Below, one piece after another: positions 24,438 through 26,122 of a stretch of 62,206 nucleotides of DNA. The DNA is from Spirochaetota bacterium. GTDB taxonomy: Bacteria; Spirochaetota; UBA4802; UBA5368. The stretch is from the NCBI GenBank assembly GCA_035477215.1, contig DATIKU010000019.1:1-62206 (forward strand), in the 5' to 3' direction. Position 1 is the first letter of the stretch. The number at the start of each line of letters is the position of its first letter. The notes beneath the pieces were generated by a model. The model ran no database searches. It was not told the DNA's origin and was given only the letters and a program-made list of their open reading frames with translations. Both the position numbers and the translations under genes were made by a program.

Positions 24438-24468
24438 AATGTTATCATTCCACCCGGTGCGCGCGGGG

Positions 24469-24775
24469 TTATTTCGCTTCCGGTCCTGTGCGGTATATCC
24501 GGTATTCGAAGCCGTGGTTGAAGGTTATCTGCCAGTCGCCGAGGGTCTTATAATAATACGGCCATGCATAGTCAAGCTTTAAAATGATGATCCGATAAAT
24601 CGTAAACCCGGATCTGTATCCAAATCATCGAACTCCCCTGTCTCGGGGTCGATACCATTGAAAGAGTCATCCCCGGTAAAGCCGAAATCGAAAAAAAAAC
24701 GTCTTTATCGACCTTAGTCCACCGAAAAGGGTAGAGCCGGCAGGCAACGATAGCCGTTATGAAAAAAGTCCCCGG
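24469..24775 (-). pseudogene. decayed C-terminal fragment of a predicted outer-membrane protein
   Basis: On the minus strand three successive reading frames carry what looks like one protein tail: RLYPFRWTKVDKDVFF up to a run of nine T (about 24691-24699), then a second frame FDFGFTGDDSFNGIDP followed by ETGEFDDLDTDPG, then a third frame reading LKLDYAWPYYYKTLGDWQ, ITFNHGFEYRIYR and ending at a TAA at 24469-24471. The alternating aromatic, amphipathic pattern is that of beta-barrel strands. There is no good start codon and no single frame spans it, so a gene seems to have been disrupted by at least two frameshifts and a 5' deletion. Sequencing error in the T run is an alternative. Family not determined. 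Confidence 0.4.
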
Positions 24776-24865
24776 CGGCAGGCATATCGGGTTAAATCGC
24801 TCAATCGCAATGCACCTGTAAAAGGTACACTCCCCAATAAAAAACCTAAAGATTTCGTTTTTTGG

Positions 24866-24894
24866 TTGCTTATTGAGACACTGTACCCTATCAA
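24866..24894 (+). promoter_or_regulatory. probable promoter of the 6S RNA
   Basis: TTGCTT (24866-24871) and TATCAA (24889-24894) are 17 bases apart, placing the transcription start near 24901, where the 5' strand of the 6S closing helix begins. The -35 match is weak. Confidence 0.4.
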
Positions 24895-24900
24895 GTAACA

Positions 24901-25085
24901 AGTGCCTGCGGTGCCCGTGATAGGAACCTTATATTTTTGAACCAACACCAAGCGAAAGGGGTCCCCACATCCGCAGGTGGAAATCAGGCTGCCCGAAAGG
25001 GGAGTAGGTTGAAGCAGGCGTGCGGGAACCCACCTGTGATAACAGGTTCAAAATTTCGCTTCCTACACGGCATTCGCGGGTGTTA
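24901..25085 (+). ncRNA. ssrS: 6S RNA (SsrS-like), RNA polymerase regulator
   Basis: A non-coding stretch of about 185 bases whose ends pair into a long, bulged rod as in 6S RNA. The closing helix joins CCTGCGGTG (24905-24913) to CATTCGCGGG (25071-25080) and CGTGATAGG (24916-24924) to CCTACACG (25062-25069), in the same arrangement as the terminal helix of E. coli 6S (CCUGAGAUG with CAUCUCGG). Inside are perfect 9-bp helices TTTTGAACC/GGTTCAAAA (24935-24943 with 25045-25053) and CGCAGGTGG/CCACCTGTG (24972-24980 with 25030-25038), enclosing a large asymmetric bubble. 6S RNA mimics an open promoter and sequesters housekeeping RNA polymerase. It ends about 18 bases before the next gene. Assignment is by structure and terminal sequence, not by covariance search. 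Confidence 0.7.
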
Positions 25086-25102
25086 TAAAAAGAGAACCGC
25101 CC

Positions 25103-26122
25103 ATGGACACCATATTCGGAATCAGATGGAGAATCGCGGACTACACCGAGATTCTGCTGGCATTCATCATTATACTCGTGATACTTACGTTTTTCGGTTT
25201 GCTTCGCTACAACCAGCGCCTTAAAAACGAAAAGATCCAGGCCGAGCAGCTCTTTCTATTCAAAATCAAACAGCTCGGCCTCAGCAATTTTCAGGTGAAA
25301 ATTCTGGACGGGCTGGTGCACACGCTCCGCCTGCCCGACGCGAGCATGATTCTCGAAAACCAGGGCCTTTTCGAATCCGCCATCGGAAGTTTCCTGGCAT
25401 ACCTCAAATCGCGCGGTGAAAAAGAGGATTCTCTCACATCCATTTGCCGCGATCTTATCATCACCTACGAGAAACTCTACAACCAGTCCACCTTTAGAAC
25501 GCCTCTCCAGATGATAACCGAAATGGAAATCGGCCTGCTTCTTTTCATCACGACGAAAAGCGGGACCATCTTCATCGGCAAAATCACTCAAATCGAACCC
25601 GGACAACTTACGCTCGCCACATTCCGAAGCACTCGCGAAATCAACATCCTGGAGGGAACCGATGCGGACGCGTTTGTCTGGAGAGCGGGAGACGCTGAAT
25701 ATTCTTTTAAAACCAGGACTCTTTCCATCGCCGACAAATCCGTCTCGATACTGCTGCCGGAAGAATTCAACAGGGGAAAGGAAGTTCGACATCCCTTCAT
25801 CGACACCATCATCCCCTGCACCATCACCAAGATCGCCGCGGCCCAGCTGGATTCCATAAAAAACGATACCGCTCCACTCAGTGCCGTCATCCATAAGATC
25901 CACCAGGACGAGCTTATCGTACGCACATCCAGAAAACTCGATTACCGCCAGTCATACACCATAGACTTCATACTTTCCGATTTCAAGATGCGCATTACCG
26001 CCATCGTCATCGCCGACAGGACCATCCAGGAGGAAAATGTCTTTTACCTCACGTTCAGATATACCGAAATATCCGAAGCCGCCAGGAGCCTTTTAAAGAA
26101 ATACATCCAGGAACACCTGTAA
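25103..26122 (+). CDS. membrane-anchored protein, possibly PilZ-like
   Basis: 339 residues with one N-terminal membrane helix (~16-36) followed by a charged linker, a helical region (~45-140) and a beta-rich C-terminal half. Part of this half (MEIGLLLFITTKSGTIFIGKI) resembles the N-terminal domain of YcgR-like proteins, and RGKEVRHPF resembles the arginine motif of PilZ domains, but the usual 'D-x-S-x-x-G' motif is not clear. A c-di-GMP receptor role is therefore only a suggestion. It starts about 18 bases after the 6S RNA and may be expressed by readthrough from it, as ygfA is from ssrS in E. coli. Confidence 0.7.
   Translation: MDTIFGIRWRIADYTEILLAFIIILVILTFFGLLRYNQRLKNEKIQAEQLFLFKIKQLGLSNFQVKILDGLVHTLRLPDASMILENQGLFESAIGSFLAYLKSRGEKEDSLTSICRDLIITYEKLYNQSTFRTPLQMITEMEIGLLLFITTKSGTIFIGKITQIEPGQLTLATFRSTREINILEGTDADAFVWRAGDAEYSFKTRTLSIADKSVSILLPEEFNRGKEVRHPFIDTIIPCTITKIAAAQLDSIKNDTAPLSAVIHKIHQDELIVRTSRKLDYRQSYTIDFILSDFKMRITAIVIADRTIQEENVFYLTFRYTEISEAARSLLKKYIQEHL

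Follow-up and report, generated by a model that had tools for sequence, protein, structure and literature searches.

The DNA at positions 24900–25086 of the window (the whole stretch of 62,206 nt that was analysed) is a genuine 6S RNA gene of an uncultured bacterium of the spirochaete phylum. We put at about 0.96 the probability of the explanation as a whole, namely a canonical 6S gene with its own sigma-70-type promoter, probable partial read-through into the next gene and the release route proposed below. 6S RNAs, abundant transcripts of about 160–200 nt whose level depends on the growth phase, shut down RNA polymerase at growth arrest: they mimic an open promoter and hold the housekeeping polymerase, which is released once it has used the bubble as template for a product RNA. 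The sole unusual trait of the gene described here is its position just 5′ of an uncharacterised membrane-protein gene.

Identification of the 6S RNA gene

The Rfam 6S model RF00013 is matched over its full length (model positions 1–187) on the forward strand, with 80.3 bits (E 3e-14) against a curated gathering score of 46.4 bits. A search of the 3.57-Mb Spirochaetota genome found one copy. A preliminary description, made from the letters alone, had called this stretch a probable 6S RNA and proposed, among its checks, two computational ones, a covariance search with the Rfam model and a search for compensatory changes in relatives. Both came out in its favour, the second among 38 aligned sequences, and a conserved promoter element supports it further. 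The location was also right, with the ends (24901–25085) each one base short of the model match. Its remark that 6S RNAs are easily missed in divergent phyla does not hold here, where a plain Rfam search detects the gene and the majority of relatives in the order lie above the cut-off. Table 1 collects the features of the locus.

Table 1. Features of the 6S locus, in window positions
Feature	Position	Strand	Basis and remarks
Predicted promoter	24866–24894	+	−35 TTGCTT (24866–24871), 17-base spacer, −10 TATCAA (24889–24894), T-rich tract before
6S RNA (SsrS) gene	24900–25086	+	RF00013 full-model match; single copy
Closing stem, 5′ arm	24904–24919	+	Pairs with about 25067–25082; 87.5% of cells paired, 7 pairs doubly changed
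Helix P2, 5′ strand, and predicted product-RNA template	24935–24943	+	UUUUGAACC; perfect 9 bp with 25045–25053
Predicted product-RNA synthesis start	24946	+	Product 5′-GUUGGUUCAAAAAU..., GG at positions 4/5; Rfam alignment and the rule of PMC8414754
Predicted central-bubble collapse helix, 5′ arm	24950–24957	+	AAGCGAAA; partner 25054–25061, UUUCGCUU
3′ central-bubble hairpin	25032–25047	+	ACCUGU-GAUA-ACAGGU; 88.6% of cells paired, 2 pairs doubly changed
Helix P2, 3′ strand	25045–25053	+	GGUUCAAAA; alignment and helix scan
Predicted central-bubble collapse helix, 3′ arm	25054–25061	+	Partner 24950–24957
Closing stem, 3′ arm	25067–25082	+	Rfam match, fold, 38-sequence alignment
Downstream gene, 339-aa protein	25103–26122	+	N-terminal membrane helix, YcgR/MotI-like (PilZN-PilZ) fold; predicted

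Folded as a single strand, the RNA reaches −74.1 kcal/mol (z = −3.7), and 1 of 200 shuffles folded equally well. The stretch had been described as lacking coding potential. The open reading frames that overlap it on either strand (24572–24901, 24757–24951 and 24937–25224) are all short, and the one submitted to Pfam, 24572–24901, matched no family. A protein-coding reading was rejected on these grounds. An origin from phage was rejected as well, similar DNA being found in 0 of 50,697 phage records.

RF00013 passes the cut-off in 46 of 59 relatives and is near-universal in the window's order. Of 247 Spirochaetota genomes sampled across the phylum only 81 pass, and the sequences from the order could therefore serve as a starting set for finding overlooked 6S genes in the rest of the phylum; elsewhere in Spirochaetota, either the 6S gene has been lost or its sequence has diverged beyond the reach of the Rfam model.

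Structure, conservation and a proposed release route

In a structural alignment of 38 sequences, all from the window's order, the closing stem, an internal stem and the terminal loop are conserved through compensatory change. The pairing ends that had been likened to the terminal helix of 6S RNAs, CCTGCGGTG/CATTCGCGGG and the extension CGTGATAGG/CCTACACG, are both present. Two further perfect helices of 9 bp had been described; one is exactly that and the other has 8 Watson–Crick pairs, an alternative second 9-bp helix with one G-U pair lying at a different site (24972–24980/25030–25038). At least two perfect helices of at least 8 bp arose in 1.1% of 1000 shuffles.

Helix P2, found by the helix scan as TTTTGAACC/GGTTCAAAA, flanks a central bubble (24944–24957/25029–25044, by inspection), and the two together form a putative open-promoter mimic. 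In the alignment 87.1% of its cells are paired and 4 of its pairs are changed on both sides. P2 and the hairpin on the 3′ side of the bubble are mutually exclusive at 25045–25047. The predicted collapse helix consists of 8 Watson–Crick pairs, AAGCGAAA/TTTCGCTT. Computed energies place the P2 conformer at −73.6 kcal/mol and the conformer with the 3′-bubble hairpin and the collapse helix at −74.1 kcal/mol, only 0.5 kcal/mol apart. Such a switch of conformers in the central region would agree with the known mechanism of 6S release.

The Rfam-derived core with P2 has 84.9% of its pair cells standard and 25 pairs doubly changed, with a covariation score of 0.298 (0.160 when shuffled); replacing P2 by the 3′-bubble hairpin gives 85.0%, 23 pairs and 0.325 (0.167). 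No shuffle matched the observed score for either structure, although these controls ignore relatedness, which inflates the statistics of shuffles and permutations alike. When the structures were slid by one to three columns, a control that retains relatedness, only 36–46% of pair cells were standard. RNAalifold, run independently, returned the core together with some of the 3′ hairpin; of its 33 pairs, 19 are doubly changed. For the collapse helix, pairing averaged −3.8 kcal/mol with the native partner and −2.0 kcal/mol with exchanged partners (0 of 5000 permutations), a comparison that is likewise inflated by relatedness. This helix is strong in family 1, in one genus of family 3, and in genus 12 and one other genus of family 7; in several other families of the order it is absent or weak, so that the mechanism in the order does not generally include it. 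The spirochaetal 6S RNAs collected here span the order, with covariation supporting both conformations, and the collection aids the annotation of these uncultured genomes.

From what is known of the family, the RNA would fold to a rod whose internal bubble imitates an open promoter, and in cells growing slowly or not at all the rod would capture the housekeeping RNA polymerase holoenzyme. Once nutrients return, the polymerase would begin copying at about 24946, on the 5′ side of the bubble, and proceed into P2, thereby opening P2; the hairpin and the collapse helix could then form, and their formation would eject the polymerase. The analysis shows that the window RNA belongs to the family, that its fold and promoter element are conserved and that its helices exclude one another; that it is expressed, binds polymerase, templates a product RNA, is read through into the next gene and follows this release route is what we infer. 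Short antisense products from near 24946 would read GUUGGUUC..., and an adenine directly precedes the predicted start. Verified cases carry GG at positions 4/5, with an adenine upstream of the start (PMC8414754), a pattern that the putative start at about 24946 fits.

Promoter, gene neighbourhood and the downstream gene

The RNA probably starts from its own predicted promoter, because a −35-like TTG[AC] occurs at a fixed spacing, 30–35 bases 5′ of the RNA, in all 40 RNA-bearing genomes of the order against 11% of control windows. In these genomes the element is usually preceded by an A/T tract. The −10 of the window, TATCAA, is imperfect and ends five bases 5′ of 24900.

On the 5′ side, hisB, hisH, hisA and a GGDEF gene lie on the opposite strand; ilvE, a PilZ gene and an ABC ATPase lie on the 3′ side of the locus. 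The window's ilvE is 62–93% identical to that of many Spirochaetes/Spirochaetota metagenome-assembled genomes, which places its source among the uncultured members of this phylum; the best of 80 ilvE loci carried the phylum name. None of ten loci around ilvE in relatives carries a 6S gene, and among the loci seen 6S adjoins ilvE only in the window species. A recurring neighbourhood is found in several families of the order (6S loci L143 and L141, for example): his genes and a large protein of about 840–985 aa, surface- or peptidase-like, diverge upstream of 6S, and a pyruvate:ferredoxin oxidoreductase-like gene converges downstream, the names being assigned by eye. The window's genus has no such large protein at the 6S locus, and the window species has ilvE in the place of the oxidoreductase. 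The ∼460 bases between hisB and 6S (24438–24899) hold no convincing gene where relatives carry one of ∼3 kb, and are possibly a deletion scar in which only the promoter was retained.

The preliminary description had the RNA ending about 18 bases before a membrane-protein gene, and saw in this an echo of ssrS-ygfA with a different gene. The adjacency stands, at a corrected distance of 16 bases, and the arrangement is indeed alike, with a YcgR/MotI-like gene in second place; the linkage belongs to part of the order only. The same gene lies directly 3′ of 6S, on the same strand, in 11 of 40 genomes of the order, which come from families 1, 4 and 6 and five genera, have gaps mostly of 9–23 bases and include five from a single genus. 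A homologue of the protein is present in 35 of 59 relatives, and in many other genomes of the order it is located elsewhere, without the RNA. In the window, a simple scan found no terminator between the RNA and the gene; a transcript common to both is likely, with part of transcription probably running on into the gene. The simple scan did not cleanly separate linked from unlinked genomes by their 3′ U-runs or terminators.

The 339-aa protein is predicted to be membrane-anchored with a YcgR/MotI-like PilZN-PilZ fold. It matched no Pfam family at E≤1, PilZ included, and 2 of 20 relatives' proteins gave a weak PilZ match (best E 0.0019). In the AlphaFold2 model (mean pLDDT 84.1, pTM 0.59) an N-terminal helix and a helical region are followed by two beta barrels. 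The nearest solved structures in Foldseek were MotI/DgrA, VCA0042, YcgR and MrkH (MotI E 5.8e-11), the two-domain match having a low TM-score (0.29 of the query) and single PilZ domains about 0.6–0.7 of the target. The c-di-GMP motifs RxxxR and (D/N)xSxxG were sought by eye in the alignment of the protein family, which shows a conserved RGKEVR in the linker and no evident DxSxxG.

This linkage could mean that the RNA is no free-standing 6S RNA and serves instead as a 5′-leader regulator, a riboswitch or attenuator, of the membrane-protein gene. The short distance to the start codon, the scan for terminators and the recurrence of the pair in 11 genomes would suit a leader, but 29 genomes of the order in which the gene was not found 3′ of the RNA still have the 6S structure and the promoter element (in a few of them the contig ends near the RNA), many of these 29 have the homologue elsewhere without the RNA, and the full 6S model is matched. 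A leader was rejected on the retention of the RNA in those 29 genomes, and we consider it very improbable. A chance fold or functionless relic is contradicted by the full-length model match, the covariation and the conservation of the promoter element, and has a still smaller, almost negligible probability.

It is also conceivable, though unlikely, that a regulatory operon made up of 6S and the YcgR-like protein couples polymerase sequestration to motility or second-messenger output. Same-strand linkage with short gaps recurs in three families, the fold resembles MotI/YcgR, and the window holds a GGDEF gene and another PilZ gene nearby; yet most of the order lacks the linkage and often has the gene elsewhere, the PilZ ligand motif DxSxxG is not seen in the alignment, nearly half of the linked genomes (five) share one genus, and 6S neighbours are known to be lineage-specific, as in lactic acid bacteria (PMC8414754). 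Slightly more doubtful again is the broader proposal in which an operon of this kind, conserved in part of the order, ties polymerase sequestration to motility or c-di-GMP and is combined with release through both an E. coli-type hairpin and a B. subtilis-type collapse helix. We prefer the canonical 6S gene with partial read-through, and treat the linked YcgR-like gene as a lead, not a result.

Comparison with known systems

The window RNA is like the 6S/SsrS family of RF00013 in length, closing stem, central bubble, P2, terminal stem-loop, template strand and full-model score; it has no feature outside the range of the family, and its sequence is lineage-specific. It is an ordinary 6S RNA, and what is new here is the linked gene only, whose functional tie to 6S is unproven. 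The 6S RNA of Borrelia burgdorferi (Bb6S), predicted by Barrick et al. 2005, was detected by RNA-seq and is raised by the stringent response (PMC6041397). It belongs to the same family and phylum in a distant lineage; since 6S has thus already been described in Borrelia, the window RNA is another member of a known family.

In E. coli, ssrS-ygfA likewise has a 6S gene followed by a protein gene (PMC2848244, PMC7641849), directly and on the same strand as in the window. There, however, the second gene encodes a folate enzyme, whereas that of the window encodes a membrane-anchored YcgR/MotI-like protein, and co-transcription in the window is only predicted. With the c-di-GMP effectors YcgR, MotI (DgrA) and VCA0042 the window protein shares two beta-barrel domains and a C-terminal helix; it differs from them in its N-terminal membrane helix and helical segment, in having no Pfam PilZ match and in the DxSxxG motif, which was not seen.

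Release of polymerase proceeds through a 3′ hairpin in E. coli and through a collapse helix in B. subtilis and Aquifex (PMC8876501, PMC4227106). Both elements can be drawn in predicted folds of the window RNA; the hairpin excludes P2, and the RNA would adopt either the P2 fold or the one with both elements. The window's genus combines the two, with a hairpin of 6 bp rather than 9; several related families lack the collapse helix.
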